Of a stretch of DNA of 64,000 bases, positions 34,617 through 51,110 are shown piece after piece. The notes below the pieces were generated by a model. That model ran no database searches and was not told the origin of the DNA. It saw only the letters and a program-made list of their open reading frames with translations. This DNA is from Glycomyces sp. TRM65418. Its GTDB lineage: Bacteria > Actinomycetota > Actinomycetes > Mycobacteriales > Micromonosporaceae. The number at the start of each line of letters is the position of its first letter. The stretch's first letter is position 1. The stretch covers positions 62,001 to 126,000 of the forward strand of contig NZ_JAJFAX010000006.1 of assembly GCF_019710475.1 (NCBI RefSeq), in the 5' to 3' direction. Position numbers and translations under genes: made by a program.

Positions 34617-35143
34617 TCGATGCCCTCCAAGAGGTTCAGCGCGAGTGCGCGCAGGTGATCGCGTGATGCGCCTTCGGGCGGGAACGCGCAGAGCGCCTCG
34701 GCGAACCACGTCCCCTCGGCGATGAGGCGGACCGCCATGAGGCGCGCCCGCTCGTCGGCCGGCAGTTCGTCGGGCAGTTCGAGCCAGGGGCGCATCCGTT
34801 CGACCCACCGGCCGGTGAGCTGGTCGCGCAGCCGCGGGTCGGCGAACATCACCAGGTCGCCCTGGTCGACCTCGCAATCGAGGGCCCAGCCGAGATAGGC
34901 GCGGATGCGGTCGCCGGGCGGGGTCTGCTCGAGCGGCCGGTGCAGCCGGGCGGCCAGGTCCCGTTCCCAGCCGTCGACCACGCGGTCGAGCAGGGCGACC
35001 ATCAAGGCCTCCTTGGTGGGGAAGTGGTACATCACGCCCGGCTTGGTCAGTCCCGCCTGCCGGGCGGCCGATTCCAGTGAGACGGTGGCGCCGGCCCTGA
35101 GCATGGCCACCGCGCCGTCGAGGATCTCCGCTTTCGAACTCAT
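34613..35143 (-). CDS. TetR-family regulator of the SMR operon
   Basis: 176 residues from ATG 35143. A GTG one codon upstream is possible. N-terminal helix-turn-helix 'VSLESAARQAGLTKPGVMYHFPTKEALMVALLDRV'-type (key: LESAARQAGLTKPGVMYHF), then an all-helical ligand domain. Operon order tetR-smr-smr and a palindrome over its own promoter suggest drug-inducible autorepression. Confidence 0.9.
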   Translation of the reverse strand: MSSKAEILDGAVAMLRAGATVSLESAARQAGLTKPGVMYHFPTKEALMVALLDRVVDGWERDLAARLHRPLEQTPPGDRIRAYLGWALDCEVDQGDLVMFADPRLRDQLTGRWVERMRPWLELPDELPADERARLMAVRLIAEGTWFAEALCAFPPEGASRDHLRALALNLLEGIE

Positions 35144-35149
35144 CACTCG

Positions 35150-35155
35150 ACTTTA
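35150..35155 (-). promoter_or_regulatory. -10 hexamer of the leaderless tetR promoter
   Basis: Minus-strand TAAAGT ends 6 nt before ATG 35143. It touches the operator palindrome. Confidence 0.5.
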
Positions 35156-35172
35156 CCAACCAGAAGGTTGGT
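35155..35172 (-). promoter_or_regulatory. Probable TetR operator
   Basis: ACCAACC-N4-GGTTGGT, a perfect 7-bp dyad. It starts at the edge of the tetR -10 and fills the -10/-35 spacer, so a bound repressor would block polymerase. Typical size and place for TetR autoregulation. Confidence 0.7.
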
Positions 35173-35297
35173 TTCCCTCATAGAGTGAGCGACCTCACGC
35201 TCGCGCTCGCGCCGACCCGGTCGCCGCCCTGAGGCCCTCGCCGGCCTGGTTCGCCTCACCGGCAGGGTCTGACCCGAACCCGCTCGCACCACGGCGA

Positions 35298-35319
35298 TGT
35301 CGCACCCCGCCCCTATGCT
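35298..35319 (+). promoter_or_regulatory. Shared DUF4132 promoter, copy 1
   Basis: TGTCG-N11-TATGCT. 15 of 22 positions are invariant among the three copies at 35298, 38777 and 42418. TATGCT is a plausible -10; the conserved TGTCGYAC block lies too close to be a normal -35 and may be an activator or alternative-sigma element. 34 nt before ATG 35354. Confidence 0.65.
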
Positions 35320-35353
35320 CAACCGAGCAACCCCGGTCGAACGAAAGACGTCG

Positions 35354-38300
35354 ATGACGAATCACCTTGCACCCCAAGAAGACGACATGCGCCTCCCCGC
35401 GGCCTGGGCCCGGTTCGTCCTGCCCCGCCGCGGCCGCGACACTCCCGACGTGAAGCTCGACCCCGGCGCGCTCGACGCCTACCGCGAGCGTCTCCGGCGC
35501 ACCGCGCCCCAACTGCAGGAGACCCTCCGGCTCCCCGCCAACCGCGACTGGCACGACGACGCGCAGGCCTATCTCCTCGGCGAGCCGAACCCGCGCGGCG
35601 CGGCGACCGTGGCCGCGCTGGCGGGCTCCGACGAGGCCGACTCGGACACCGCCCTGCTGCGACCCGCGCTCGACGTCTGGATGCTCGAATTCGGGCTCCC
35701 GTTCGCCACCGCCGCCGCGGTCGAACGCCTCACCCGCGTGGTCGACCGGACGATCGCACGGGGCGAGCGCCGCCTCCTCGGCGGCATCGACGCCTACCCG
35801 CACCTGCTCATGAAAGGCCTCGGCCACGGTTGCCGCGTCCTGCGCGGACTGCTCGCCGACGCCTCCGACGAGGAATACGCGGCCGCCGTCGCGGCCGTCG
35901 CCCCGCTCCGCGACGACCCCGCCCGCCGCATGGCCGCCGCCCTGCTCCTGCCCGACGAGACCGCGTGGACCGAGGAGGCCAGCGCCGACTACGAGCAGCA
36001 CCAGGACTGGGGTTGGACCGACGTCCTCTTCTGGAACTGGGTCCGCACCCCCGAACAGCTCGCCGCCGCCAAGCTCACTCGCATCAACGAGTACCTCATC
36101 ACCGTCGAATCCATCGCGGCGCTGACCGACGGCCTCGGCCCGGCGGCCCTGCCGGTCCTGACCGCGACCCTCGACGGCGGCAAGCGCCCCAACGCCGCCG
36201 ACCGCCGCCTCCTGCTCACCGCGATCGCCGCCCTGCCGAGCGACGAGGCGATGACCTACCTCATCGGCCGCCTGCACGAACCCGACGTCTTCGGCGCCGC
36301 CGCGACCGCCGTCGGACACTTCCCCGTGCGCGCCCTCCGGCACCTCGCCCGCGTCGCGGGCGCCACCCCGGTCGAGCGGCGGCCCCGCCTCGCCGCACTC
36401 GCCGCCGCCATAGCGGCCGACGCCCGCGACCACCTCACCGAGACCGAACGCGCCGCCCTCGACACGCTCGTCACCGCGACGTCGGCCGTGCCCGCCGCGG
36501 CTCTCGGGGACCTCCCGCCCCTCCTGGCCTCCCCGCCCTGGACCGGCAGGCGCCCCAAGCGACAAGCCGTCGTCCTCGAAGGACTCGAAGCACCGTCCGA
36601 GACCGTCCTGGTCTGGGCCCCAGGCGAACAGGAACGCTGGGCGAACCTGCACCATCTGGACTACAGCGGCTACGACGACCGGCGGTGGGCCGCGATCGCC
36701 GGCCGGCCGCATCCGTCCCACGACTCCTGGGTCACCGAACTCGTCGCCTTCGCGCCGCCCGAGCTCGCCGCCCGCTTCAAGGACCGATGGAACGGGAAGA
36801 TGAGCACCTATCAGGGAGAGGCCATGCTGCGGCGCATCATCGGCCGATTCGGGGCCGAAGCGGCCGACCGGGCCGTCGCCGCGGTCGCGCGGCACCACCA
36901 GTTCACCGCGGCGCTGCTGCCGATCCGCGGCGTCGCGGCCGCCAGGCTCGCCGCCGAGCGGCTGGGCCTCAAGTCGGCGCGGCCGCAGGCCGCGGCCTGG
37001 TTCGACCGGCACGGCGTCGACGCGGCGGCCCTGCTCGTCCCCGACGCGCTCGGCACGGACCCGGCACGCCGCCGAGCCGCCGAGACCGCGCTGGCGCACC
37101 TCGCCCGCACCGTCGGTCCCGACGCCGTCCGCGACGCCGCGAGACCTTATGGGCCCGAAGCCTTCGAAGCCGTCAGCGCCCTCATGGACGCCGACCCGCT
37201 CGAACCGGTCGGCGCCAGGATCCCCAAGCCCGGCCCGTGGGCCAACGCGGCCATGCTCCCGCAGGTCCTCCTGGCAGGACGCGAGCGCGCCGTGCCCGCC
37301 GCCGCGGTCCCGCATCTGGTCACCGTGCTCGCACTCGGCGCCCCCGAGTTCCCGTACGCGGGCGTCGACGTGGTCGCCGAGGCCTGCGACCGCGAGTCCC
37401 TGCGGCGCTTCAGCTGGGCCCTGTTCGAGGAGTGGATCGCGATCGGCGCGCCCTCGAAGGACGGCTGGGCGCTCACCCAGCTCGCGCACGTCGCCGACGA
37501 CGTCACCGTCAGCCGCCTGGCCGCGCTCATCCGCGAATGGCCCGGCCAGGGCCAGCACAAGCGGGCCGTCACCGGACTCCGCGTGCTCGGCGCGATCGGC
37601 AGTGAGGCCGCCCTGCGGGCCATCCACGCCATCGCGCAGAAGGCGAAGTTCAAGGCCCTCAAGGAGGAGGCGGGCCGCCAGATCGAAGCGGTCGCCGAAG
37701 GGCTCGGCCTGAGCACCGAGCAGCTCGCCGACCGGCTCGTGCCCGACTTCGGGCTCGACGACGCCTCCAGCATGGTGCTCGACTACGGGCCGCGGCGGTT
37801 CCGGGTCGGCTTCGACGAGGCGCTGAAGCCGTTCGTCACCGACATGGACGGCAAGCCCCGCAAAAGTCTCCCCAAACCCGGCGCGAAGGACGACGCGCTG
37901 CTGGCGCAGGCCGCCCGCGAACGGTTCGCGTTCCTCAAGAAGGAACTGCGCACCGTCGCCGCCGACCTCGTGGGCCGCCTCGAGTCGGCGATGATCCAGG
38001 GCCGCACCTGGACCGCGGAGGAGTTCCGCCGGCACTTCACCGACCATCCGCTGGTGCGCCACCTCGCCCGCCGCCTCGTCTGGACGGCCGAGGCCGACGG
38101 CGAGCGCATCGCGTTCCGCCTCGCCGAAGACGGCACCCTCAGCGACGCCGACGACGACGCGTTCACGCTCCCCGACGAGGCGACGGTCCGCCTCGCCCAC
38201 CCGATCCTCCTCGGGGACCAGGCGGGCCGGTGGGCCGAGATCCTGGCCGACTACGAGATCCTGCAGCCGTTCGAGCAGCTCGGCAGGCCGATGTACGCGT

Positions 38301-38671
38301 TCGAGGCCGCGGACCTGGCGACCGGGCGGCTGACCCGCTTCGAGAGCACCGTGGTCGAGACCGGCCGCATCCTCGGCATGACCAAACGCGGCTGGGAACG
38401 GGCCGCACCCGCCGACGCGGGCATGGAGCCCGGCATCGCCTACCGGATCGCCGACGACGCCTACCTCCTGGTCGAACTCGACCCGGGCCTCTACGCCGCC
38501 GCCTACGAATCGGCGACCGAGCAGACCATGCGGCAGGTCCGGCTCGCGGCGACGGCGAACTTCTGGAGCGGCGACGCCGGACCCGACGTGCTCGCCCGCT
38601 TCGCGGACCTCGACCCGCTGCGCGCCTCCGAAGCGCTCGCCTCACTGCACCGCTTGGCGGGCAAGGAATAG
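35354..38671 (+). CDS. DUF4132 (MolR/YehI-like) protein, paralog 1
   Basis: 1105 residues from ATG 35354. That start matches the third paralog (MTNHLAPQEDD against MPQHVAPQDDR) and lies 34-35 nt after the shared promoter. The first about 750 residues look like an alpha-solenoid of HEAT-like helices. The C-terminal about 330 residues form the DUF4132 domain, with 'LDYGPRRFRVGFDEALKPFV', 'LPKPGAKDD', 'RLAHPILL' and 'ADYEILQPFEQLGRP'. Homologous to E. coli YehI/MolR, function unresolved. No WGR domain is seen. Cytoplasmic. It ends at a hairpin, so it is probably a separate transcript. Confidence 0.88.
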   Translation: MTNHLAPQEDDMRLPAAWARFVLPRRGRDTPDVKLDPGALDAYRERLRRTAPQLQETLRLPANRDWHDDAQAYLLGEPNPRGAATVAALAGSDEADSDTALLRPALDVWMLEFGLPFATAAAVERLTRVVDRTIARGERRLLGGIDAYPHLLMKGLGHGCRVLRGLLADASDEEYAAAVAAVAPLRDDPARRMAAALLLPDETAWTEEASADYEQHQDWGWTDVLFWNWVRTPEQLAAAKLTRINEYLITVESIAALTDGLGPAALPVLTATLDGGKRPNAADRRLLLTAIAALPSDEAMTYLIGRLHEPDVFGAAATAVGHFPVRALRHLARVAGATPVERRPRLAALAAAIAADARDHLTETERAALDTLVTATSAVPAAALGDLPPLLASPPWTGRRPKRQAVVLEGLEAPSETVLVWAPGEQERWANLHHLDYSGYDDRRWAAIAGRPHPSHDSWVTELVAFAPPELAARFKDRWNGKMSTYQGEAMLRRIIGRFGAEAADRAVAAVARHHQFTAALLPIRGVAAARLAAERLGLKSARPQAAAWFDRHGVDAAALLVPDALGTDPARRRAAETALAHLARTVGPDAVRDAARPYGPEAFEAVSALMDADPLEPVGARIPKPGPWANAAMLPQVLLAGRERAVPAAAVPHLVTVLALGAPEFPYAGVDVVAEACDRESLRRFSWALFEEWIAIGAPSKDGWALTQLAHVADDVTVSRLAALIREWPGQGQHKRAVTGLRVLGAIGSEAALRAIHAIAQKAKFKALKEEAGRQIEAVAEGLGLSTEQLADRLVPDFGLDDASSMVLDYGPRRFRVGFDEALKPFVTDMDGKPRKSLPKPGAKDDALLAQAARERFAFLKKELRTVAADLVGRLESAMIQGRTWTAEEFRRHFTDHPLVRHLARRLVWTAEADGERIAFRLAEDGTLSDADDDAFTLPDEATVRLAHPILLGDQAGRWAEILADYEILQPFEQLGRPMYAFEAADLATGRLTRFESTVVETGRILGMTKRGWERAAPADAGMEPGIAYRIADDAYLLVELDPGLYAAAYESATEQTMRQVRLAATANFWSGDAGPDVLARFADLDPLRASEALASLHRLAGKE

Positions 38672-38680
38672 CGCCTCTGC

Positions 38681-38716
38681 CGGCCCGGCTCCGAATCCCC
38701 TTGCGGAGCCGGGCCG
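38681..38716 (+). terminator. Hairpin after DUF4132 paralog 1
   Basis: Perfect 13-bp stem CGGCCCGGCTCCG/CGGAGCCGGGCCG with a 10-nt loop, 9 nt after the stop. No T-tract, as is common for actinobacterial stem-only terminators. Confidence 0.6.
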
Positions 38717-38776
38717 CAATGGTGTCCACTGTGCTGACCGCTGTGGCGTTCACCGCGCGTGCCGGCGCGGACACCG

Positions 38777-38798
38777 TGTCGTACCCGGTTCCTAAGCT
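38777..38798 (+). promoter_or_regulatory. Shared DUF4132 promoter, copy 2
   Basis: TGTCG-N11-TAAGCT. The hexamer ends 7 nt before ATG 38806, so this copy would give a leaderless transcript, unlike copies 1 and 3. Confidence 0.65.
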
Positions 38799-38805
38799 GT
38801 CGCCC

Positions 38806-41800
38806 ATGACCGAATCCGACACCCCCGCAACCGAAGCGGCGACGCTGCCCGACGAGGACCGCCTCGCCTTCCCCGACACCTGGAAGCGCTTCGTCCGGGC
38901 CCGGCGCGGCCAAGGCAAGCCCCGCCGGATCAAACTCGACGCCGAAGCCGGACGGGCATTCCTGGCCGACCACGCGGACCGGGCCCGCAAGCGCCTGGAC
39001 CTCGCGGGCAATCGGGAATACCGGAACCCAGGGCTCGCCTTCCTCGACGGCGACCCCGATCTCCTCGGAGCCGCCGCGGTCATGGCGCTCGCCAGTCCCG
39101 CGGTCACCAGGACCCAAGTCGTCAACCGTCCGATGTTCGACCTCGTCACAGCCGACCACGGCCTGCCGTTCGCCGTCGCCGCGCTCGCCGAGGCGCTCAC
39201 CTTCCAGGTCGACCAGACCGGCCCCCAGAACACCCTCAGGCTCCGCCGGATGGCGTTGAACAGCCATTTCTGGTCGAAGCTACTGCAGCACAAGGAGATC
39301 AACGACGTCCGCGCCCTCCTGGCCGGGGCCTCCGACGCCGACTACGCGGCGGTCGTGGCCGCGGTCGCCCAGCGGCGCACCAGCCCCGCGCACCGCGTGA
39401 CCGCGAGCCTCCTGATCCCCGACGAACACGCCTGGATGGACGAGGCCTGCGCGGAGCACCACCGGCACCAACCGAGCGAGTCCTGCACGAGCCTGCTCCT
39501 CGAAGTGGTCGCGACCGGCCCGCAACTGGCCGTCCTGGGCGTGAAACAGATCGGTTCCCCCTGGGTGCAGGCGGCCGAGATCGCCGACCTCCTGCACCGC
39601 TTCGGCGGGGAGGCCTTTCCCGCCGTCGCGCACCACCTCGACGGCTACATCGACGGCAACGAGAAGAAGATCCTGTTCCGGGCGCTCGCCGCGATGCCCA
39701 CCGACCAAGCCGTCCAGGCCCTGCTCGACCGCCTCGACGAATCCGCCGCCGCGGGCTTCGCGATGGAGGCCGCCGCGAACTTCCCGCGGCGGACGCTCCG
39801 CCTCATCGCCGCGCGTCTCCCGGACGCCGGGCCCGACGAGCAGAAGCGGCTTTCCGCACTCCTGTACGCCGACCCGATCCTCCTCGAAGCCGCCTTGCCC
39901 GAGACGGACGAGCAGACGCGAGCGGCGATCGCGACGCTCACCGCGGAGCACCGGCGCCTCCCCGAAGCCCCGGACGAGTCCCTGCCGCGACTGCTCACCT
40001 CGCCGCCGTGGACCGGCGCCGCACGCGAAGCGGTCGTCATCAAGGGCCTGACCCCACCGCCGATCAACCGACTCGTGTGGGCCGAGGGCGAGCGCGAAGC
40101 GTGGTCCGAAGAGGACACGTACGGTATGCGCCACTACGGCGACCGCGACTGGGAGCGAGAGGCGCAGGACTTCGACAAGCGGTCGAGCCGCTCCCAAGCG
40201 ATCGTACTCGCCTTGGCGCCCAAAGCCATCGCGCAAGACCTCCTGCCTCGCTGGCGGATCCGCGACCAGTACTTCGAACTGGAACTGCTCCAGCGCATCG
40301 TCGTGAACCTCGGCCCCGACGCGGTGGAGCAGGTCGCGGCGGCCACCCCCTGGGACGCCTCGATGCGCGAGGTCCTGCTGCCGATCGCGAACCTCACCGC
40401 CGCCCGGATAGCCGCCGACGCGCTCGCGCGGCTGAAGACCATGCGCGCCTTCGCGCTCGCATGGCTCGACCGCCACGCCGCCGACGCGGCGGCGCTGCTC
40501 GTCCCCGACGCCCTCGGCAAGACGAAGCGGCCCCGCATCGCTGCGGCAACCGCACTGCGCTACCTGGCGTCGACACACGGCGCCGATCTCGTCAACTCGG
40601 CCGCCGTCCAATACGGCGAGGAGGTCGCCGCGGCCGTCGCCGCGTTGGTGGACATCGACCCCCTGCAACCGGTCGGTGTGCCGATGCCGAAGCCCGGCGC
40701 ATGGGCCTCCCCGGCGGCGCTGCCGCAAGTGCTGCTCGCCGGGCGCGAGCGGGGGCTCTCGCAGGAGGCGACGCGGCACCTCATCACCGTGCTCGCCCTC
40801 GGCACGCCCGAGTACGACTACCCGGGCGTCGCGGTCGTCGCCGAGACCTGCGACCGCTCCTCCCTGGCGCGGTTCTCGCTCGCGCTGTTCGAGCAGTGGC
40901 TGGCGGCGGGCGCCCCATCCGAGGACGGCTGGGCCGTGACGCAACTGGCGCACTTCGGCGACGACGAGGCCGTGCGCGTCCTCGGGCCACTCGTCGCGAC
41001 CTGGCCGGGGGAGAGCCGGCACCAACGCGCCGTCACCGGTCTGCGGGTGCTCGGGGCGATCGGCACCGAGACCGCGCTCCGGGCGATCAACCGGATCGCC
41101 GAGAAGGCCAAGTTCGACAGGATCAAGGCCGAAGCGTGGGACCAGATGGAGGCGGTCGCCGAACGCCTCGGGCTGACGGCCGAGCAGCTCCGCGACCGGC
41201 TCGTGCCGGACTTCGGGCTCGGCGAGGAGGCCGCGCTGGTCCTCGACTACGGGCCGCGGCGGTTCCGGGTCGGCTTCGACGAGGCGCTGAAGCCGTTCGT
41301 GACCGATATGGACGGCAAGCCCCGCAAGACGCTGCCGAAACCGGGGGCGAAGGACGACGACCTCTTGGCCGAGGCCGCGTACCGGCGGTTCGCGGTGCTG
41401 CGAAAGGAACTGCGCGAGGTCGCGTCCGAGCAGGTGCGGCGCCTCGAACGCGCCCTGGTGAGCGGGCGGACCTGGAGGTTCGACGAGTTCGAGGAGCACT
41501 TCGTCCGGCACCCGCTGATGTGGCACCTGACGCGGCGGCTCGTGTGGACGGCGAGCGCGGTCGGCGGGCCGGTGGCGTTCCGCCTCGCGGAGGACAAGGG
41601 CTGCACCGACGTCGACGAGAACGAGTTGCGCCTGCCCGGCTCCGCGGTGGTCCGGCTCGCGCACCCGGCGCTCATGGAGCGGGGCGAGATCGAGTCGTGG
41701 TCGGCGATCTTCGCCGACTACGAGATTCTGCAGCCGTTCCCGCAGCTGGGGCGACCGGTCATGGCCTTCATGGACGAGGAGCTGCGAACGGGCCGCCTGA

Positions 41801-42132
41801 CGCGGTTCGAGGGGATCACGGTGCACGTGGGTCGGCTGCTGGGGATGACCAACCGGGGTTGGAGCCGCTCCGAACCGCTGGACGGCGGGGTCGAGCCGGG
41901 GATGACCCGGTGGCTCAAGGGTGCGGGTTGCATCGTGATCGACCTCGATCCGGGGATCCTGGTCGGCGCGATCGACCAGTGCCCCGACCAGACGCTGCGG
42001 CAGGTCGTGGTCGCGAACGAGGGCTTGGGCGGCTGGAGGGTTCCCGAGCCGGTGCGCGACTTCGGGCCGGTCGACCCGGTGGACGCCTCGGAGGCGCTCA
42101 CCGCCCTGGCGAATGCGACCGGAGTGAGCTGA
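38806..42132 (+). CDS. DUF4132 (MolR/YehI-like) protein, paralog 2
   Basis: 1108 residues from ATG 38806. Same architecture as paralog 1: 'DTWKRFVRARRGQG' N-terminus, long helical-repeat region, C-terminal DUF4132 domain ('DYGPRRFRVGFDEALKPFV', 'RLVWTASAVGGPVAFRLAED', 'ADYEILQPFPQLGRP'). Identity to paralog 1 is moderate overall but a 59-nt stretch (41242-41300 against 37778-37836) is identical. Followed by a 340-nt gap and paralog 3. Function unknown; context is the MoxR/VWA cassette downstream. Confidence 0.88.
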   Translation: MTESDTPATEAATLPDEDRLAFPDTWKRFVRARRGQGKPRRIKLDAEAGRAFLADHADRARKRLDLAGNREYRNPGLAFLDGDPDLLGAAAVMALASPAVTRTQVVNRPMFDLVTADHGLPFAVAALAEALTFQVDQTGPQNTLRLRRMALNSHFWSKLLQHKEINDVRALLAGASDADYAAVVAAVAQRRTSPAHRVTASLLIPDEHAWMDEACAEHHRHQPSESCTSLLLEVVATGPQLAVLGVKQIGSPWVQAAEIADLLHRFGGEAFPAVAHHLDGYIDGNEKKILFRALAAMPTDQAVQALLDRLDESAAAGFAMEAAANFPRRTLRLIAARLPDAGPDEQKRLSALLYADPILLEAALPETDEQTRAAIATLTAEHRRLPEAPDESLPRLLTSPPWTGAAREAVVIKGLTPPPINRLVWAEGEREAWSEEDTYGMRHYGDRDWEREAQDFDKRSSRSQAIVLALAPKAIAQDLLPRWRIRDQYFELELLQRIVVNLGPDAVEQVAAATPWDASMREVLLPIANLTAARIAADALARLKTMRAFALAWLDRHAADAAALLVPDALGKTKRPRIAAATALRYLASTHGADLVNSAAVQYGEEVAAAVAALVDIDPLQPVGVPMPKPGAWASPAALPQVLLAGRERGLSQEATRHLITVLALGTPEYDYPGVAVVAETCDRSSLARFSLALFEQWLAAGAPSEDGWAVTQLAHFGDDEAVRVLGPLVATWPGESRHQRAVTGLRVLGAIGTETALRAINRIAEKAKFDRIKAEAWDQMEAVAERLGLTAEQLRDRLVPDFGLGEEAALVLDYGPRRFRVGFDEALKPFVTDMDGKPRKTLPKPGAKDDDLLAEAAYRRFAVLRKELREVASEQVRRLERALVSGRTWRFDEFEEHFVRHPLMWHLTRRLVWTASAVGGPVAFRLAEDKGCTDVDENELRLPGSAVVRLAHPALMERGEIESWSAIFADYEILQPFPQLGRPVMAFMDEELRTGRLTRFEGITVHVGRLLGMTNRGWSRSEPLDGGVEPGMTRWLKGAGCIVIDLDPGILVGAIDQCPDQTLRQVVVANEGLGGWRVPEPVRDFGPVDPVDASEALTALANATGVS

Positions 42133-42472
42133 ACGCCCTCCGGCCGTCCCCAACCCCCACCTTCCCGAGAGGGGTAGAGAAGGTAGGGCGAGCCCGGCAG
42201 CCGGGTCCGACAAGAATCCGCGCCGCCGGGCCGCCCGTCCGCAAGATCCACCCGATCGGGTGCGGTCCGAGCGAGGGGTGATGGACCGGGCGCGGTTCGC
42301 ACGCCGAATCAGACGGCAGATCAGGCGACTCGGACGCCGCGAAACCGCCGCTCCCAGCCCGGGTGCCGCCCTCGCTCAGCGGCACTGCGGCCGTTCGAAC
42401 ACGGCGGCGCGGGGCGGTGTCGCACACGGCTTCTATGCTCGGCATGACGCCTCCGCCGCTGGAAAGTTGCAC
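42133..42472 (+). other. 340-nt gap between DUF4132 paralogs 2 and 3
   Basis: No convincing gene. The paralog 3 frame stays open upstream to 42260 (with an ATG at 42281), but the shared promoter copy 3 at 42418-42439 lies inside it, so that stretch is taken as non-coding. A CACCTTC/GAAGGT partial dyad occurs near 42160-42190; no strong terminator is seen. Confidence 0.5.
42418..42439 (+). promoter_or_regulatory. Shared DUF4132 promoter, copy 3
   Basis: TGTCG-N11-TATGCT. It would drive paralog 3 and, by spacing, the whole MoxR-DUF5682-VWA-SWIM operon. 33 nt before ATG 42473. Confidence 0.65.
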
Positions 42473-44605
42473 ATGCCCCAACACGTTGCGCCACAAGATG
42501 ATCGGCCCGAACTCCCGGAAGCCGCGCTCGACCGCCTGCCGTCGGTGCTCGCCGATCCGCCATGGACTCGCAAGCGACGCAGGTCCAAAGCCCCCACGGT
42601 GATCCCGGGCCTCGAGGCCCCCGCCCCCCAGCTCGTCGGGCGGCCCGGCGAATTCGAAGCGGCCCTGGCGATCGAGCCGACCGTCACCGAATGGGACGAG
42701 GCCGAGTACTGGGACGGCGACCCCGAGTCCCCGATCCGCCTGCCCGGCTTCTTCGGCGCCGGCAAGTGCCTGTCCCAGCTCGCCCGCAAAGGCGTCGCCG
42801 TGGCCGACGCCGCCGTCCGCGAACTCGAAGACGAACCGTGGTCCGGCCGCGCCCTCCTGCCCATTCGCAGCACCCCCGCTGCGAGGCTGGCCGCGCACTG
42901 GGCCCTGCGCCGCCGCGACGGCCGCAGGCCCGGCCTCGACTGGTTCGACCGCCACGGCCTCCGCGCCGTGCCGTTCCTCGTGCCGGAGGCGTTCGGCCCC
43001 CAGGCCTACCGCCGCACCAGCGCCCGCAGTGCCCTGCGCCTCCTCTCCTGGCGGTACGGGTCCGACGCCGTCGTCGGCGCCGCGGAGCCCCACGGGCCCG
43101 AAGCGGTCGCCGCCGTCGCCGCGCTCTTCGACACCGACCCCCACCAACCCCTGCTGGAGGCCCCCCAGACGGGTGCGTGGGTCCACATCGCCGAGAACCT
43201 TCCGCCGGTGCTCACCGCCGACCGGGCCGCGATCCTCCCGCCCGCGGCGATCCGCCACCTGATCGAGGTCCTCTGCCAGTGGGCGCCGCGCGTGCCCTAC
43301 CCCGGCCTCGACGCCGCCGCGGCCCACTGCGACCGCGAATCGCTCGCCCGCTTCTCCCTCGCGCTCGCCGAAGAACTGATCGGCGTCGACTGGGCCATCG
43401 GCCCGCTCGCCTACTTCGGCCTCCCCGAGGGCGCCGCGCTGCTCGAAGCCGCGATCCCCAGCTCCGGCGGCAGAGAGCCCGAGACCACGGCCTTCGAGCT
43501 GGAAGTCCTCGCCGCGTTCCCCGCCGAGATCGCGTTCCCGCCGCTCTACCGGCTCTCCCGCGGCACCATGAAACCCGCGCAGCGCGCGGAGGCCGCCGAA
43601 CGGGCCCGCGCCGTCGCCGAACGCCTCGGCGCCGAACCCGAACCGCTCGCCGACCGCCTCGCCCCGACCCTCGGCCTCGACGACCCGGCGACCCTGACCA
43701 TCGACTTCGGGCCCCGCGCCTTCTACGCGAAGCCGGACGACCGGCTCAAGTTCACCATCGTCGACGACGCCGGCCGGACCCGCCCGCGCCTGCCCCGGCC
43801 CGGCGTCCGCGACGACGCCGCGACCGCCGCCGCCTCGATTGCCCGCTACCGGAAACTGACCAAGGACGTCACCGCCCAGCTCGCCTTCCAGAGCGCCCGC
43901 CTCGAGGACGCCATGCTCGACGGTCGCCTGTGGACCTCACGGGAGTTCGCGCGCCTCACCGCCCACCCGGTGCTCGCCCCGATCGCCCGGGGCCTGCTGT
44001 GGCTCGGCGGCACCCCCGAAGCGGCCCAGTGCTTCCGCATCGCCGAGGACGGCACCCTCGCCGACGTCGACGACAAGCCGTTCGCGCTCGCCGAGCACGA
44101 CCTCGTCCGCCTCGCCCACCCGGCCCTGCTCTCCCCGGCGGACCTGGAGGCCTGGACCCGGGTGTTCGCCGACTACGAGATCCTGCAGCCCTTCGACCAG
44201 CTCGTCCGACCGGCGCTCGGCCTCCTTCCCGAAGAGGTCGAGAGCGGGATCCTGCACGGCTTCACCGGGGCCGTGGCGAGCTTTCACGGCCTCAAGGCCG
44301 TCATGGACCTCGAGAATCTCGGCGTGAGCGGGGACTGGAACGCCCGGGTCGACTACACCCGGGCGTTCAGCAAGGCCCTGCCCGGCGGGGTCTGGCTCCT
44401 GGCCCAGGTCGACCCGGCGCCGCCCTGGCACGACCCCAGGCCCGACAGCTGGCATCGAATCGAGTCGATCTGGTTCGCCACCACCAAGAACCGCCGCCAA
44501 GGCGTCCCGACCCTCGCCGGACAGGACCTCCTCGAAGCGCTCGACCCCGTCGTCCTCTCCGAGCTCCTCGCCGGACTGAACCGCGCCGCCGGTCTCCACC
44601 TCTAA
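42473..44605 (+). CDS. Shortened DUF4132 protein, paralog 3
   Basis: 710 residues from ATG 42473, about 395 shorter than its paralogs. The first 11 residues match the start of paralog 1, then the sequence jumps to 'PELPEAALDRLPSVLADPPWT', which aligns with about residue 380 of paralog 1 (PAAALGDLPPLLASPPWT). The C-terminal DUF4132 domain is present ('IDFGPRAFYAKPDDRLKF', 'FADYEILQPFDQLVRP') but more diverged, for instance LDYGPRRF becomes IDFGPRAF. The frame is intact over its whole length, so it is likely functional. 16 nt before the MoxR gene: same operon. Confidence 0.85.
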   Translation: MPQHVAPQDDRPELPEAALDRLPSVLADPPWTRKRRRSKAPTVIPGLEAPAPQLVGRPGEFEAALAIEPTVTEWDEAEYWDGDPESPIRLPGFFGAGKCLSQLARKGVAVADAAVRELEDEPWSGRALLPIRSTPAARLAAHWALRRRDGRRPGLDWFDRHGLRAVPFLVPEAFGPQAYRRTSARSALRLLSWRYGSDAVVGAAEPHGPEAVAAVAALFDTDPHQPLLEAPQTGAWVHIAENLPPVLTADRAAILPPAAIRHLIEVLCQWAPRVPYPGLDAAAAHCDRESLARFSLALAEELIGVDWAIGPLAYFGLPEGAALLEAAIPSSGGREPETTAFELEVLAAFPAEIAFPPLYRLSRGTMKPAQRAEAAERARAVAERLGAEPEPLADRLAPTLGLDDPATLTIDFGPRAFYAKPDDRLKFTIVDDAGRTRPRLPRPGVRDDAATAAASIARYRKLTKDVTAQLAFQSARLEDAMLDGRLWTSREFARLTAHPVLAPIARGLLWLGGTPEAAQCFRIAEDGTLADVDDKPFALAEHDLVRLAHPALLSPADLEAWTRVFADYEILQPFDQLVRPALGLLPEEVESGILHGFTGAVASFHGLKAVMDLENLGVSGDWNARVDYTRAFSKALPGGVWLLAQVDPAPPWHDPRPDSWHRIESIWFATTKNRRQGVPTLAGQDLLEALDPVVLSELLAGLNRAAGLHL

Positions 44606-44621
44606 CCCGTAGAAAGCCGAC

Positions 44622-45704
44622 ATGACCGAGATCACCGCACCGAAACTCCAGCGCCCGCCCGCCGAGCGGCGCTACGCCGCCGAACTCGCGAAGCTCGCCG
44701 ACGAGGACGAGTCGCCCCGCCCGCCCGGGTGGGCCCTCAGCCTCCAGGCCGCCCGCACCTTCATCGTCGGCGACGACTCCCGCGGCATCGCCCGCAAGTT
44801 CGTCGGCGACCCCTCGCTCATCGACCGCGCCCTCGTGACCCTCGCGACCAGCCGCGGCCTCATGCTCGTCGGCGAGCCCGGCACCGCCAAATCGCTGCTG
44901 TCCGAACTCATCGCGGCCGCCGTCTCCGGCGACTCCACCCTCACCATCCAAGGCGGCGCCTCCACCACCGAGGACCAGATCGCCTACTCCTGGAACTACT
45001 CCCTGCTCGTCTCCGAGGGCCCCACCCAGCGCGCGCTCGTGCCCGCACCCCTCCTGCGCGGCATGGCCGAAGGCCGCGTCGTCCGCTTCGAGGAGATCAC
45101 CCGCTGCCCCCTCGAAGTGCAGGACTCCCTGCTCTCGCCCCTGTCCGACCGCGTGCTCGCCATCCCCGAACTCGACGGCGACTCGATGGTCTTCGCCCGC
45201 GAAGGCTTCAACATCATCGCCACCGCCAACACCCGCGACCGCGGCGTCAACGAGATGAGCGCGGCCCTCAAGCGCCGCTTCAACTTCGAGACGGTCTTCC
45301 CCATCGCCGACTTCCAGACCGAACTCGACCTCGTCGAACACGAGGCCGCCGCCGCGCTGGAGCGGTCGGGCGTCCCGACCCCGCCGTCGCGCGACGTGCT
45401 CGAAGTGCTCGTGCGGGTCTTCCGCGACCTCCGCACCGGCGAGGCGGGCGGCGACCGCCCCCAGGCCGTCATGTCCACGGCCGAGGCCGTCTCGGTCGCC
45501 CACGCCGTCGGCATCAAGGCCTGGTACCTGCGCGGCGGGAAGGCCGAGGCCGGCGACATCGTGGACTGCATGGCCGGGGCCGCCGCCAAGGACAACGCCG
45601 AGGACCTCGCGCGCCTGCGCCGCTACCTCGAACAGAAGGCCCCCAAACGCCAAGGCCCGCACTGGCACTCGCTCTACCAGGCGCGGAACCTGCTGCCGGG
45701 ATGA
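44622..45704 (+). CDS. MoxR-type AAA+ ATPase (YehL-like)
   Basis: 360 residues. Walker A GEPGTAKS (84-91), Walker B RVVRFEE (152-158), sensor-1 TANT (201-204), 'ALKRRFNFETVFPI' with the arginine-finger region (about 218-219), and a helical lid. MoxR ATPases work with VWA-domain partners as chaperones or remodelers; a VWA protein lies two genes on. Matches E. coli YehL by position in the cluster. ATGA overlap with the next gene. Confidence 0.92.
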   Translation: MTEITAPKLQRPPAERRYAAELAKLADEDESPRPPGWALSLQAARTFIVGDDSRGIARKFVGDPSLIDRALVTLATSRGLMLVGEPGTAKSLLSELIAAAVSGDSTLTIQGGASTTEDQIAYSWNYSLLVSEGPTQRALVPAPLLRGMAEGRVVRFEEITRCPLEVQDSLLSPLSDRVLAIPELDGDSMVFAREGFNIIATANTRDRGVNEMSAALKRRFNFETVFPIADFQTELDLVEHEAAAALERSGVPTPPSRDVLEVLVRVFRDLRTGEAGGDRPQAVMSTAEAVSVAHAVGIKAWYLRGGKAEAGDIVDCMAGAAAKDNAEDLARLRRYLEQKAPKRQGPHWHSLYQARNLLPG

Positions 45705-48004
45705 CGAGTCGACTGCATCTGCAGGGCGTGCGGCACCACTCGCCCGCCTGCGCCCGCCTCGTCGCCGAACGGATCGAGCGGCTGCGGCCCTCGGCCGTGC
45801 TCATCGAGGGCCCGGCCGACTTCAACGACCGCCTCGACGAGCTCGCCCTCGCCCACGAGCTGCCCGTCGCGATCTACTCGTACGCGAGCACCGACGCCGC
45901 CGTCCGGCGCTCCTGGGCCCCGATGTGCGACTACTCGCCCGAATGGGTCGCGCTCACCGAGGGCCGCAAAGCGGGCGCCGAGGTCCGCTTCATCGACCTC
46001 CCCGCCTGGCACGAGTCCTTCGAGGGCGTCGAGAACCGCTACTCGGACGCCGAGCGCCGCTACACGGACGCGGCGGACCGGCTCTGCCGCGCCTTCGCCG
46101 TCGACAACGTCGACGCCCTGTGGGACCACCTCGTCGAAGTCGCCGACCCCGACGGACTCGAAGCGCGGCTCGACCAGTACTTCGCGCTCCTCCGCGGCGA
46201 AGCCGACACGGGGGCCGCCGACACCGCGCGCGAAGCGTACATGACCCGATGGATCCGCGCGGCGCTCGAAGCCCACGACGGTCCGGTCCTCGTCGTCTGC
46301 GGCGGCTTCCACGCCCCCGCCCTGCGCCGCATGATCGACGCGGCGCCGGAGGCGACCGACGCCGGGCCGCCCGCCCTCCCCGAACCCCCCGAGGGCGCCG
46401 AGGTCGGCACCTACCTGGTGCCCTACTCGTTCAAGCGCCTCGACGCCTTCGCCGGGTACCAGTCCGGGATGCCCTCACCTGAGTACTACCAGCGCCTCTG
46501 GGAGGCCGGACCCGAGGAGGCCGCCGCCGTCCTCGTGCAGCGCATCACCGAGCGCCTCAGGGACCGCGGCCTCCACGTGTCCACGTCGGACCTCATCGGC
46601 GCGCGCAGCCTCACCGAAGGCCTCGCGCGCCTGCGCGGCCACGAGCGCCCCGGCCGCACCGACCTCCTCGACGGCCTCGCCAGCGCCCTCATCAGCGACG
46701 ACCTCGAACGGCCGCTGCCGTGGGCCCGCCGTGCTTCCCTCACAGTGGGAACGCATCCCGTGGTGGTCGAGATGACCGCCGCGCTCACCGGCGAGCGCGT
46801 CGGCGCCCTGCACCCGGACACGCCGCGCCCGCCGCTCGTCGCCGACGCCGAAGCCGAGATGGAGCGGCTCGGCCTCGACGTCGAGGGCCCGCTGCAGCTC
46901 GACCTCACCAAACCCGTGGACCTGCAACGCAGTCGCGTCCTCCACTGCATGCGCCTCCTCGGCCTGCCCGGGGTGCACCGGGTCGGCGGCCCCTCCGCGG
47001 GCGCGGACGTCACCGCCGAGGAGCACTGGACCCTCCGTGCGAGCCGGGACCGCCTGCCCGCGCTCATCGAGGCCGGGGCCCTCGGCCCCACCTTGGGCGA
47101 CGCCGCGCAGGTCCGTCTTGAACACCGGCTCGAGCGCAGCCTCCACGACGCCTCCGGTGCGCTCGACGCGCTGGCCGTCCTGCTCTTCGACGCGGCCCTG
47201 TGCGGGCGCGCCCGCCTCACCGGCCGCCTCGGACAGGCCGTTGAATCCGCAGTGGACGAATGCGGCGGCCTGGGGGCCGTGGGCGCGGCGCTCGCCACCG
47301 TGCTCGCGCTGTGGCGCCACGACCACCTGTTCGGCACCGCCGGCAGCGACCTGTACGCGGCGGTCGTGACCGCCTGCGCGAGCCGCATCCTGTGGCTCGC
47401 CGAGGGCCTGCACGCCGGGCCCGGCCCGGCCGACCTCGGCAGGCTCGGCGCGATGCGTGCCCTGCGCGACGCCGTCCGGCACGCCTCCCCGCTCGTCCCG
47501 CCGGTCGCCACGGTCACCGCTGCGGCGCAGCGCATCGCAGTGGACGGCCAGGCCCCGCCGGACCTGCGCGGCGCGGCCCTGGGCCTCGTGTGGGCGCTCG
47601 GCGCGCCCGCGGACGCGGCGGCCGCGGCGGAAGGCGCGGCCGGTCCGGACCGGCTCGGCGACTGGCTCGCGGGCCTGTTCGCCGTCGCCCGCGAGGAAGT
47701 CCTCGCCGAAGCCGACGACGGCGGCGTGGTGTCCGCTGTGGACGGACTCGTCGCCGAACTGAACGAGCAGGAGTTCCTCGTGGCCCTGCCCGCGCTGCGG
47801 CAGGCGTTCGCGATGTTCCCGCCGCGCGAGCGCGGCCTCATCGCCGAACGCGTGGTCGCGCTGCGGGGCGGCGGCGACGCCCGCGGCCTCACCGCGCGGC
47901 TGCGCGTCGACCCGCTCACCGTGGCGTCCTCGATGGCGCTCGAAGCCCGCGTCGAGGCCGTCCTCGCCCGCGAAGACCTCAGATTCGGAGAAGAGTCCCG
48001 ATGA
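45701..48004 (+). CDS. DUF5682 protein (YehM-like)
   Basis: 767 residues from ATG 45701, overlapping the MoxR stop. The N-terminus 'LQGVRHHSPACARLV' and 'VLIEGPADFNDRL', with a later 'VVCGGFHAPALRRMI', are the DUF5682 hallmarks; the paired GxxH-like motifs recall TraB/ChaN-type proteins, which is a tentative likeness. The C-terminal half is helical and Ala-rich. No signal peptide. Corresponds to E. coli YehM. Function unknown. Overlaps the VWA gene by 4 nt (ATGA). Confidence 0.87.
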   Translation: MTSRLHLQGVRHHSPACARLVAERIERLRPSAVLIEGPADFNDRLDELALAHELPVAIYSYASTDAAVRRSWAPMCDYSPEWVALTEGRKAGAEVRFIDLPAWHESFEGVENRYSDAERRYTDAADRLCRAFAVDNVDALWDHLVEVADPDGLEARLDQYFALLRGEADTGAADTAREAYMTRWIRAALEAHDGPVLVVCGGFHAPALRRMIDAAPEATDAGPPALPEPPEGAEVGTYLVPYSFKRLDAFAGYQSGMPSPEYYQRLWEAGPEEAAAVLVQRITERLRDRGLHVSTSDLIGARSLTEGLARLRGHERPGRTDLLDGLASALISDDLERPLPWARRASLTVGTHPVVVEMTAALTGERVGALHPDTPRPPLVADAEAEMERLGLDVEGPLQLDLTKPVDLQRSRVLHCMRLLGLPGVHRVGGPSAGADVTAEEHWTLRASRDRLPALIEAGALGPTLGDAAQVRLEHRLERSLHDASGALDALAVLLFDAALCGRARLTGRLGQAVESAVDECGGLGAVGAALATVLALWRHDHLFGTAGSDLYAAVVTACASRILWLAEGLHAGPGPADLGRLGAMRALRDAVRHASPLVPPVATVTAAAQRIAVDGQAPPDLRGAALGLVWALGAPADAAAAAEGAAGPDRLGDWLAGLFAVAREEVLAEADDGGVVSAVDGLVAELNEQEFLVALPALRQAFAMFPPRERGLIAERVVALRGGGDARGLTARLRVDPLTVASSMALEARVEAVLAREDLRFGEESR

Positions 48005-49158
48005 GCGACGACACGAACGCCGCGCAGGCGGACCTGCAGCGCTGGCGGCTCATCCTCGGCCCCGCCGCCGAAGGCTGCACCGGCGGCCTCAGCGAGGAGA
48101 ACGCCGGGCGCGACGCCGCGCTCGACTGGCTCTACGGCCGCGACGACGACCTCGGCAAACGCGACGTGCGCCGCGGCGGGGTCCGGTCCGGCGAGCGCGG
48201 CGGGGGGAGCGAGCCCTCCATGCTCGCCACCGTGGACTGGCTCGAAGGCATCCACCGGCTCTTCCCGAAGGAGACGATCGAGCGGCTCGAACGCGACGCG
48301 ATCGAACGCTACGAGATCCACGACGTGCTCACCGACCCCGAAGTGCTCGAGCGCGTCGAACCGAACGCGGCCCTGCTCAAAGCGGTCCTGCGCACCAAGC
48401 ACCTGATGAACCCGCAGGTCCTCGCAGCCGCCCGCCGCATCATCGAGCAGGTCGTGCGCGAACTGGTCGAGAAGCTCTCCGTCCAGGTCCGCACCGTCTT
48501 CACCGGCAGCCGCTCCCGCCGGCCGAGCCGGCACCGCCGCGCCCGGGACTTCGACCTCAAACGCACGCTCCGCGCCAACCTCAAGCACTACCGGCCCGAG
48601 GACCGCCGCGTCGCCATCGAGCGCCCGCACTTCCACTCGCGCACCTCCAAGCGCCTGGAGCAGTGGCAGCTCGTGCTCCTGGTCGACCAGTCCGGGTCCA
48701 TGGCCGGATCGGTGATCCACTCGGCCGTCACCGCCTCGTGCCTGTACGCCCTGCCGGGCCTCAAGACCCACCTCGTCGCCTTCGACACCTCGGTCGTCGA
48801 CATGACCTCCGAGGTGGACGACCCGGTGGAACTGCTCATGAAGGTCCAGCTCGGCGGCGGCACCGACATCGCGCGCGCCGTCGAATACGGGGCCGGGCTC
48901 ATCGAGAACCCCCGCCGCTCCATCGTCGCCCTCATCAGCGACTTCTACGAGGGCGGCAACGCCTCCCGGCTGATCCACACCGTCAAGCAGCTGTGCGAGC
49001 AGGGCACGCAGGTCCTCGGCCTCGCCGCCCTCGACGAGGACGCCAACCCCGACTACGACCACCAGATGGCCGCGCAGCTCGCCGCCGTCGGCGCCCACGT
49101 CGGCGCGATGACCCCGTCCCACCTGGTCGAATTCGTCGCAGAAAGGCTGGGCTCGTGA
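48001..49158 (+). CDS. VWA-domain protein with intact MIDAS (YehP-like)
   Basis: 385 residues. The N-terminal about 215 residues are helical and charged. The C-terminal von Willebrand A domain has a complete metal site: DQSGS (D229, S231, S233), the GGGTDI Thr and ISDFYEG Asp. No signal peptide, so it acts inside the cell, as CoxE-like partners of MoxR do. Equivalent to E. coli YehP. GTGA overlap with the SWIM gene. Confidence 0.92.
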   Translation: MSDDTNAAQADLQRWRLILGPAAEGCTGGLSEENAGRDAALDWLYGRDDDLGKRDVRRGGVRSGERGGGSEPSMLATVDWLEGIHRLFPKETIERLERDAIERYEIHDVLTDPEVLERVEPNAALLKAVLRTKHLMNPQVLAAARRIIEQVVRELVEKLSVQVRTVFTGSRSRRPSRHRRARDFDLKRTLRANLKHYRPEDRRVAIERPHFHSRTSKRLEQWQLVLLVDQSGSMAGSVIHSAVTASCLYALPGLKTHLVAFDTSVVDMTSEVDDPVELLMKVQLGGGTDIARAVEYGAGLIENPRRSIVALISDFYEGGNASRLIHTVKQLCEQGTQVLGLAALDEDANPDYDHQMAAQLAAVGAHVGAMTPSHLVEFVAERLGS

Positions 49159-51110
49159 CCGCTCCGCACCAGCGAGGCGACCTCCTCGCCCTCACCCCCG
49201 ACGCCCTCGCGGCCCTCGCCAACCGCGGCCTCGTCAAACGCGCCGCCAAGGACCTCGACGCCGGGGTCGTCCCCGCCATCACGCTCGCCGACGGGACGCT
49301 CACCGCCGTCTTCCCCGACGGCGCCGAAGCGACGCTGCCGGCCGAAGGCGGACTCGAAGCCGCCGCCTGCACCTGCGGCGCGACGGGCAAATGCCGCCAC
49401 CGCGTCGGCGCGGTCCTCGCCTACCAGCGCGAACAGGACGCGCCCCGAGGGGACGACGAGACCCCCGCCGAGATCGCCGACCCGGGCGCGATCACCGACG
49501 AGCAACTGCGCGAAGCCCTCGGCCACCACGCGCTCAAGGCCGCCGAGCAGACCCGCCGCGCCGGATACACCGCCCGCCTCGTCCGGCCCGGCGTCGACCG
49601 GCCCGCCGTCGCCGAACTGCCCGCCGCCACGGTGAGCTTCCTCGTCCCCGGCCTCGGCTACGTCCACACCGACGCCACCGGTCCCGCCCGCGACACCGCG
49701 ATCGTCCTCGCCGTGTGGGCCTTCCGCGAAGCGGCGGCGGACGCCGCCACCGTGAGCGTCGGCGGCGGCGCCGAATCGGACGGCCTCGCCGAAGCGCTCG
49801 CCCTCGCCGAACGCGTCCTCCTCGACGGCGCGGTCGGCGCGGACGGCGTCCTGCGCGCCGCCCTCCAACGCGAGTCCAAGGCCCTCACCCGCCGCCGCGC
49901 CCACTGGCCCGCCGGCGCGGTCGACGACCTCGTCGACCAGCTCCAGCGCTACGAGGACCGCTCCGCCGCCTACGACCCCCAGCGCGTCGCCGCCCTGCTC
50001 GCCGAACTCCCCGCCCGCGCCCGGGCCGCCCGCCGCAGTACCGCTGAACGACACGCAGGCGGCACCCCCGCGGCCCAGGTCCTCGGCAGCGAGGAGGCCG
50101 CCGCCACGCCGCTCACCCTCGTGCGGCTCACCGCCCTCGGCGCGCGCGTGGGCACGGAGGGCGACACCCGCACGCTCGAGCTCTACCTCGCCCAGCCCGA
50201 GACCGGCATGGTCCTCGCCGTCCGGCGCGACTGGCCCGTGACCGAGAACGACGCGCTCACCGGCCCCGAACTCGCCGGCCGCCGCCTCGGCGGGTGCAGG
50301 ATCGGCGCGCTGGCCTCGGGGAACACCGTCACCGAAGCCGCCTCCCGCACCGCGGCACGCGCGCTCAAGCTCGGAACCGGCCGCCTCGCCAAGACCCAGG
50401 TGCTCCCGCTCGGCACGGCCTGGGACGACCTCCCGGCCTCCCTGCGCGCCACCGATCTCGACGCCCTGGCCGCCGAACTCGCCGACCGGCCGCCCGCGTT
50501 GGTGCGGCCCCGCGTCGCGGCCGAGTCCCTGCGCGTCATCGTCGTCGAATCGGCCCGGCACCTCGGCTACGACCCGGCCTCCCAGTCCCTCGAAGCCCTG
50601 ATCGAGGCCCCCGGCGGCGGCACGGCCCGCCTGCGCCTGGTGCACCGGGCCGCCGCGCCCGGCGCGCTCGAAGCCGTCGAGCGCGCCCTCACCGGCGAGC
50701 TCCTCGCCGTCGCCGGGCACGTGCGCCGGCACCGCGGCGAGCTCATCGTCGAACCGACCGCCCTGCTCACGCCCCGCGGCCCGGTCGTCCCCGACCTCGC
50801 CCCGGGGGACGACGCCGCCGACCTCGCCGCGGGCGGCGAAGCGCGCCCCGCCGACTCGGTCGCGGCCGCGATCGAAGGCGCGCTCACTGCCTGCGCGGAC
50901 CTCGCCCACCAGGGTCTCCGCCGCTCCCGCGAGCCCTCGCGCGCCCGCGTCGAGTCCGCCGCGGCCGAGCTGCAACGCGTGGGACTCCAAAGGGCGGCAA
51001 GCGATTTCGTTCAGTTGTCCAAAGCGTTGGGGGAGGAGGACGACGCCGCGAAGACCGCGGCCTGGACCGCCGCCGCCGTCCGGATCCTCGTCACCGCTGA
51101 GCTACACTGA
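49155..51110 (+). CDS. SWIM zinc-finger protein (YehQ-like)
   Basis: 651 residues from GTG 49155, overlapping the VWA stop. The SWIM motif CxCx5CxH is complete (C72, C74, C80, H82). SWIM fingers bind nucleic acid or protein. The remaining about 560 residues are Ala/Arg-rich and otherwise unrecognised. Equivalent to E. coli YehQ. Last gene of the cassette. Two weak stems (51116-51129 and 51144-51160) follow in the 180-nt gap to the malic enzyme. Confidence 0.88.
   Translation: MTAPHQRGDLLALTPDALAALANRGLVKRAAKDLDAGVVPAITLADGTLTAVFPDGAEATLPAEGGLEAAACTCGATGKCRHRVGAVLAYQREQDAPRGDDETPAEIADPGAITDEQLREALGHHALKAAEQTRRAGYTARLVRPGVDRPAVAELPAATVSFLVPGLGYVHTDATGPARDTAIVLAVWAFREAAADAATVSVGGGAESDGLAEALALAERVLLDGAVGADGVLRAALQRESKALTRRRAHWPAGAVDDLVDQLQRYEDRSAAYDPQRVAALLAELPARARAARRSTAERHAGGTPAAQVLGSEEAAATPLTLVRLTALGARVGTEGDTRTLELYLAQPETGMVLAVRRDWPVTENDALTGPELAGRRLGGCRIGALASGNTVTEAASRTAARALKLGTGRLAKTQVLPLGTAWDDLPASLRATDLDALAAELADRPPALVRPRVAAESLRVIVVESARHLGYDPASQSLEALIEAPGGGTARLRLVHRAAAPGALEAVERALTGELLAVAGHVRRHRGELIVEPTALLTPRGPVVPDLAPGDDAADLAAGGEARPADSVAAAIEGALTACADLAHQGLRRSREPSRARVESAAAELQRVGLQRAASDFVQLSKALGEEDDAAKTAAWTAAAVRILVTAELH

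Follow-up and report, generated by a model that had tools for sequence, protein, structure and literature searches.

A possible ATP-driven machine of MoxR, VWA, and a predicted TIKI/TraB-like DUF5682 protein, with multiplied DUF4132 genes, in Glycomyces

The window considered here, the whole 64-kb stretch of DNA that was analysed from the 5.09-Mb genome of Glycomyces sp. TRM65418, carries a cassette of seven genes that are all open on the + strand. These encode three DUF4132 proteins, a MoxR AAA+ ATPase, a DUF5682 protein, a VWA protein, and a protein with a SWIM motif. The last four genes are chained via three 4-nucleotide overlaps, and 16 nucleotides separate the end of DUF4132 copy 3 from the MoxR start. 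A preliminary description made from the sequence had listed the same families in this order, with the metal ion-dependent adhesion site (MIDAS) of the VWA protein intact and the last four genes overlapping by 4 nucleotides each, and open frames, Pfam matches, and motif alignments confirm both statements. It had also called the cassette fused, whereas every gene is separate in the window and no fusion is present. The cassette is discussed below as a possible ATP-driven machine in which DUF5682 is a predicted hydrolase. Its genes and the DUF5682 motifs lie at the following positions of the window:

35297..38671, + strand: DUF4132 copy 1, 1124 amino acids (aa), Pfam DUF4132 E 3.5e-57; predicted HEAT-like solenoid and C-terminal DUF4132 domain
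38719 or 38806 (alternative ATG)..42132, + strand: DUF4132 copy 2, Pfam DUF4132 E 2.5e-56
42473..44605, + strand: DUF4132 copy 3, N-terminally shortened, 710 aa from the ATG at 42473, Pfam DUF4132 E 1e-41
44622..45704, + strand: MoxR AAA+ ATPase of the YehL type, Pfam AAA_5 E 3.7e-35
45701..48004, + strand: DUF5682 protein, Pfam E 3.6e-108; predicted TIKI/TraB-like hydrolase domain (about residues 1-218) and a mostly helical C-terminal part
45725..45745, + strand: first GxxH motif of DUF5682, G9-V-R-H12-H13-S-P, from conservation
45806..45808, + strand: conserved Glu36 of DUF5682, predicted active site, from conservation
46301..46312, + strand: second GxxH motif of DUF5682, G201-G-F-H204, with G201 and H204 invariant
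48001..49158, + strand: VWA protein, CoxE-like, YehP type, MIDAS intact, Pfam VWA_CoxE E 2.7e-57
49155..51110, + strand: SWIM-motif protein of the YehQ type, from motif and position

The Walker A lysine and Walker B glutamate of MoxR are invariant in 81/81 aligned rows, and the window protein is 64% identical to E. coli YehL. The MIDAS residues D-S-S-T-D are likewise invariant in 81/81 aligned VWA proteins, the window protein included, as is the SWIM motif C-x-C-x5-C-x-H in 79/79 aligned relatives, a set that excludes rows shortened by contig ends. The SWIM protein has zero family matches in the Pfam scan; by its position, it is homologous to E. coli YehQ, to which Pfam assigns SWIM. MoxR scores below the cut-off for the beta-propeller-type family (bpMoxR, PF20030) with 21.2 bits vs 27, and a scan of six cassette proteins against NCBIfam gave no cassette model over its cut-off. 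VMAP, iSTAND, and FtsH are absent among the Pfam matches of the seven proteins, a scan in which dedicated models were not applied.

The TIKI/TraB superfamily is defined by a pair of GxxH motifs and a conserved glutamate. DUF5682 carries both motifs and the glutamate, as does the annotated TraB protein YbaP of E. coli. Within the first motif, G9, H12, H13, and the following S and P are invariant in 82/82 cassette rows; across 68 diverse rows R11, H12, H13, and P15 are invariant and G9 is kept in at least 90%, with proline in its place in some distant rows (L099, L102). The set H12, H13, E36, D99, and H204 is invariant in both samples (82/82 cassette rows and the 68 diverse rows). In a further alignment (A7), two of 18 rows (L106, L053) stop before the second motif at fragment ends. 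For the modelled N-terminal domain, the only structure matches listed are HopBA1 (TIKI) and a Tetrahymena subunit that is probably of the TraB family. Motifs and model together suggest a TIKI/TraB-like hydrolase fold for this domain. The preliminary description had anticipated an AAA+/VWA machine with a recognition part; the MoxR/VWA pair is indeed intact and the DUF4132 model is a solenoid, yet that account overlooked DUF5682, which is probably the working part of the cassette.

Several results weigh against this assignment. The first glutamate of the 2His/2Glu set (RRSP/Ere type) is missing from DUF5682, which has V10/R11 there instead. Foldseek with the DUF5682 model gave zero matches at E <= 0.001, with helical repeats at the head of the list, and Pfam PF01963 scored 14.1 and 16.4 bits under a cut-off of 26.8. 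Profile-profile comparison with a shallow set of YbaP relatives (template effective sequence numbers of 2.3 and 1.9) was not significant, with probabilities of 0.2% and 4.6%, and aligned the second GxxH region only. PF04187 reached a best E of 0.09, the match to the haem-binding ChaN is weak and confined to 2/11 rows, and the sequence has no convincing match among solved structures. Structure matches at E 6e-9 were rejected as an artefact, being designed PPR repeats whose scores add up from numerous weak segments. TraB and ChaN are nearly absent from the Actinomycetota samples (1/100 and 1/296), too few for a deep comparison set. Since its scores fall under the Pfam cut-offs, DUF5682 is called TIKI-like rather than filed as a member of the superfamily.

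The missing glutamate and the sub-threshold sequence scores would also suit a DUF5682 that is a catalytically dead scaffold of TIKI or another alpha/beta fold, the cassette then serving purely for AAA+-driven remodelling; PMC6254334 reports a protein of TIKI fold that lacks the catalytic motif. This reading is quite improbable, as five invariant residues are more than one would expect of a protein that only serves as a scaffold, and YbaP, annotated as TraB, likewise lacks the first glutamate. A DUF5682 relative of 28% identity also occurs at 1450-2871 of an unannotated and unverified scaffold labelled 'Bacteriophage sp.' (MT835988, L116), for which no phage link is claimed.

The family order that the preliminary description recognised in E. 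coli is confirmed and is widespread among Actinomycetota. The E. coli K-12 set consists of yehF (WGR), yehH (a pseudogene with a DUF4132 match), yehI (DUF4132), yehK, yehL, yehM, yehP, and yehQ. Among the best 80 of 521 confirmed stretches from a genome scan with the DUF5682 alignment, which are actinobacterial by their titles and selected in a way that favours close relatives, the order MoxR-DUF5682-VWA-SWIM is held in 78, with L016 and L067 cut by contig ends. A same-strand DUF4132 gene lies upstream in 77/80 loci (several kb off in L034 and L044); L047 and L070 have no upstream DUF4132 match, and L067 is cut. At least two upstream copies are present in 36/80; in L085, one of these loci, they may be parts of a single gene. 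A Sinorhizobium plasmid that is typed as conjugative keeps the five families together despite an altered order, namely MoxR, DUF5682, WGR-DUF4132, VWA, and SWIM; the WGR-DUF4132 fusion lies at 12245-16225 of L115, and the DUF4132 and VWA genes overlap there by ATGA. Across 198 evenly drawn Actinomycetota genomes, TRM65418 included, DUF5682 is found in 17, DUF4132 in 11 (10 above cut-off), and both in nine (Fisher p 1.2e-9), but seven of these nine belong to one genus. A family-level draw of 61 genomes has DUF4132 in 39, DUF5682 in 47, and both in 35 (Fisher p 0.003).

The association of MoxR, DUF5682, and VWA extends beyond the DUF4132 cassette. Twelve regions were selected from the 26 DUF5682 match rows of the 198-genome draw, and MoxR and VWA adjoin DUF5682 in 12/12 (by motif recognition of DUF5682 in L099 and L106). 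The architectures counted are (i) the DUF4132 cassette, (ii) a SWIM-DUF5691 cassette, (iii) a short DUF4132 and a 1683-aa protein with a DUF5682-VWA fusion, and (iv) VWA-MoxR-DUF5682, seen in L099 and L106. In the second, SWIM-like and DUF5691 genes lie near the core in L097 (opposite strand), L100 (a DUF5691 match of 22 bits only), L104, and L107; L101, L103, and L108 have a SWIM-like gene without DUF5691. A single open frame of L107 (4362-7727) joins the SWIM finger to DUF5691 directly before MoxR-DUF5682-VWA, and therefore DUF5691 may stand in for DUF4132 in this build. The third is a distinct operon seen whole in L105 (1682-12627) and L098, comprising a short DUF4132 (284 aa), the 1683-aa protein without a Pfam match, MoxR, and the DUF5682-VWA fusion.

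Proximity of DUF4132 to DUF5682 genes was counted in the family-level draw as 15 kb on either strand; DUF5682 types were assigned from Pfam bit scores and took their names from the examined loci. The count rests on 131 DUF4132 rows out of 133, two second pieces having been removed, and on 81 DUF5682 rows, from which second pieces and all rows below 89 bits were excluded, so that the low-scoring class is undercounted. A DUF4132 gene lies in reach of 14/17 cassette-type and 16/17 fusion-type DUF5682 genes, of 1/21 VWA-first-type genes, and of 0/26 DUF5691-type genes.

The DUF4132 proteins themselves are predicted to be long helical solenoids. The model of copy 1 (predicted local distance difference test, pLDDT, 90.1; predicted template modelling score, pTM, 0.82) has a helical solenoid and, after it, a mixed domain, and most of its listed Foldseek matches belong to karyopherins, SF3B, PP2A-A, and further helical-repeat proteins (best E 1.1e-3). 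Conservation is low over the first 400 residues (0.35-0.45, save one 50-residue block at 0.58) and high from about residue 700 to 1000 (0.65-0.77). Copy 3 is without about 400 N-terminal residues, its alignment to copy 1 beginning at residue 398. The counterparts in L009 and L010 are shortened as well, with copy-1 matches from 369 and 393, and in the six other Glycomyces loci of the comparison the match is longer, beginning at residue 1 to 65. The preliminary description had seen multiplication, diversification, and decay in these genes. Decay of copy 3 is rejected on the ground that L009 and L010 share the N-terminal loss with the frame open, while multiplication and diversification hold, the latter as change faster than in the other four genes within Glycomyces.

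Multiplication shows in copy numbers. This genome has seven DUF4132 matches vs one DUF5682, four of them outside the cassette at three other places; three genomes of the genus have 7, 7, and 4 DUF4132 matches and one DUF5682 each. Separately, genome G300, a family member, has 20 DUF4132 vs 3 DUF5682 matches, and a shorter second DUF4132 piece, possibly a remnant, adjoins a dispersed full copy in TRM65418 (a 222-aa frame at L109 9593-10258). In a tree of 112 of the 138 collected C-terminal domains, from which some single-copy loci were dropped at random, window copy 3 falls within a clade of five MoxR-adjacent Glycomyces copies (support 100/100). The family multiplied separately elsewhere, as in Lentzea (25 rows, 100/100) and in the E. 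coli pair (100/99), and one dispersed DUF4132 of this genome joins cassette copies from three other species (100/93). The copies thus appear to multiply repeatedly and to move between the array and other sites.

The pace of change differs among the genes of the cassette. Across nine Glycomyces loci, mean identity is 49% for the C-terminal domain of the MoxR-adjacent DUF4132 protein, and 91, 84, 76, and 74% for MoxR, VWA, DUF5682, and SWIM, respectively. The corresponding values are 84 vs 96, 93, 89, and 87% in eleven Lentzea loci, and 58 vs 81, 73, 62, and 52% in 39 loci with a single DUF4132 in reach. From the comparison of the three sets, the speed-up of DUF4132 belongs to Glycomyces. Compared with L009 or L010, the window gives ratios of nonsynonymous to synonymous substitution (dN/dS) of 0.61 and 0.65 for copy 3 and of 0.60 and 0.68 for copy 1, vs 0.15-0.36 for MoxR, DUF5682, VWA, and SWIM; L009 compared with L010 gives 0.51 for copy 3 and 0.07-0.28 for those four genes. 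Copies 1 and 2 were paired by position, and the tree gives no proof of their orthology.

These observations are brought together in a proposal with a probability of about 40%: MoxR and VWA form an ATP-driven engine that works on DUF5682, a predicted TIKI-like hydrolase, and the solenoid DUF4132 proteins are exchangeable adaptors that choose the target. It draws on the DUF5682-VWA fusion of the sister clusters, which suggests that the moved component is DUF5682 or its cargo, and on analogy with NorQD, a MoxR/VWA metal-insertion machine for which PMC13036017, in its available part, describes a VWA finger in the MoxR pore, the MIDAS as the proposed target grip, and ATP-driven rotation. By this analogy, a finger of the VWA protein would be seated in the MoxR ring. 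A DUF4132 protein would bring the client to the machine, upon whose arrival the MoxR/VWA pair would pull on, open, or feed DUF5682, and DUF5682 would then hydrolyse a peptide or ester bond. SWIM and WGR domains are associated with nucleic acid, and the SWIM part and, where present, the WGR part may tie the machine to it; DNA damage or a related stress is therefore a likely trigger. DUF4132 and WGR proteins of Deinococcus rise with DNA damage according to the literature.

Other observations count against parts of this proposal. As many as 88/131 DUF4132 genes of the family-level draw lie away from any DUF5682 gene and 43/131 within 15 kb, which, with the four dispersed matches of this genome, partly bears out the independence of DUF4132 from the ATPase operon that the preliminary description had named as contrary to its view. 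The pace of DUF4132 is near that of SWIM in Lentzea and in the single-copy loci, leaving fast change clear for Glycomyces only, and copy 2 is slower (dN/dS 0.28 and 0.44 for the window vs L009 or L010). LexA/SOS-type boxes are not enriched, either around yeh (8 vs 7.3 expected) or in the window (26 vs 21, none of them beside the cassette start), although a box with one mismatch (L008 450-465) directly precedes yehF, which starts at 475.

The NorQD analogy can also be read as a metal- or cofactor-insertion chaperone, in which MoxR/VWA open a metalloenzyme in the manner of NorQD/CoxDE, DUF5682 handles metal or haem, and DUF4132 is the client adaptor. The membership of the window protein in VWA_CoxE, the weak ChaN match, and the first description of molR, the old name of yehI, as required for molybdate use (a title cited in PMC8533742) all fit this idea. 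It is nevertheless unlikely: the scanned flanking genes show no evident metalloenzyme client, moeA and moeB did not respond with the Deinococcus regulon (PMC8533742), and multiplied adaptors seem ill-suited to one fixed client.

The surroundings of the cassette bear on its regulation and on a role in defence. Three further features were recognised:

34613..35146, - strand: TetR-type regulator, divergent from the cassette, Pfam TetR_N and TetR_C_28
35155..35172, no strand: perfect 7-bp inverted repeat ACCAACC-N4-GGTTGGT, candidate TetR operator, from position only
38681..38716, no strand: GC-rich perfect hairpin of 13 bp without a T-run, between DUF4132 copies 1 and 2, from its fold

By its position, the inverted repeat is possibly an operator shared by the TetR gene and the cassette. 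The hairpin (fold of 38669-38725, -40 kcal/mol, z -6.2) is a possible terminator or attenuator within the DUF4132 array. In L009 (6630-6669) and L010 (6492-6528), the second copy is likewise followed by a strong hairpin, whereas L011, L013, L015, and L017 have none of comparable strength; two further strong hairpins of the window fall inside genes. A scan for promoters and T-run terminators found none, a result that is uninformative because GC content exceeds 70%.

Upstream of the cassette lie genes for a transketolase, a UbiA-type prenyltransferase, and the TetR regulator; downstream, a malic enzyme and an ADP-ribosylglycohydrolase are present in 8/8 Glycomyces loci checked, the latter up to 6.7 kb off. 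Because of the housekeeping flanks and these kept neighbours, the cassette looks vertically inherited in Glycomyces, and its locus resembles a settled chromosomal site rather than a defence island. These findings speak to the preliminary suggestion of a conflict system. In an anti-phage or other conflict role, the DUF4132 solenoids would recognise invaders and DUF5682 would be the effector. The patchy spread of DUF5682 in the even draw, its carriage on a plasmid, the fast change of DUF4132 in Glycomyces, and the central place of MoxR-vWA pairs in proposed conflict systems (PMC7159879, available part) lend it some appeal. With 0/7 cassette proteins matching PADLOC models at E <= 0.01, a gene order common to E. 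coli K-12, and the inheritance pattern above, such a role is not shown and has a low probability.

A broader form of the preferred reading, the adaptor-guided hydrolase machine, would make MoxR-DUF5682-VWA a new class of ATP-gated hydrolase with at least four architectures and a bacterial answer to adaptor-directed proteolysis, one engine serving a genome-wide pool of interchangeable DUF4132 adaptors (seven per DUF5682 in this genome, 20 to 3 in G300) upon nucleic-acid damage; this extension is doubtful. The genes yehL-M-P-Q reside in the best-studied bacterium, and paper searches showed no settled function for them. The engine/hydrolase/adaptor split and a named predicted active site (H12, E36, and H204, with their YehM equivalents) make the proposed machine testable. 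If true, it would be an AAA+ directed hydrolase unlike Clp, Lon, and FtsH, whose adaptor set multiplies and, in one genus, changes quickly.

That the cassette is the little-studied yeh set was known already. As far as the paper searches show, four points are new: the TIKI-like reading of DUF5682, the recurrence of one MoxR-DUF5682-VWA core in several builds, the WGR-DUF4132 operon with its changed gene order, and the measured contrast in Glycomyces of a slow engine with fast adaptors. YehL is a separate, recognised MoxR subfamily in the available parts of PMC3893208 and PMC11432383. The E. coli yehI-yehL-yehM-yehP-yehQ genes and the window share the five families in identical order on one strand and more than one DUF4132 stretch, the second in E. 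coli being in the upstream pseudogene yehH. E. coli differs in having the WGR protein yehF at the head and the small yehK inside, and the window in having three open DUF4132 genes, a TetR gene upstream, and no WGR match in Pfam. NorQ/NorD, RavA/ViaA, and CoxD/CoxE also combine a MoxR ATPase with a nearby MIDAS-bearing VWA partner; unlike for the window, no DUF5682, DUF4132, or SWIM partner is mentioned for them in the available parts of the sources. The MoxR-vWA ternary conflict systems (Kaur et al. 2020, PMC7159879) likewise join MoxR, vWA, and a third component, which in the window is DUF5682; SWIM, EreA, TIKI, YehL, and WGR have 0 mentions in the available main text of that paper. DUF5682 finally resembles the TIKI/TraB/ChaN superfamily in its two GxxH motifs, its glutamate, and the model of its N-terminal domain, and departs from it in scoring under every sequence cut-off tried, in its long helical C-terminal part, and in sharing an operon with a MoxR/VWA pair.

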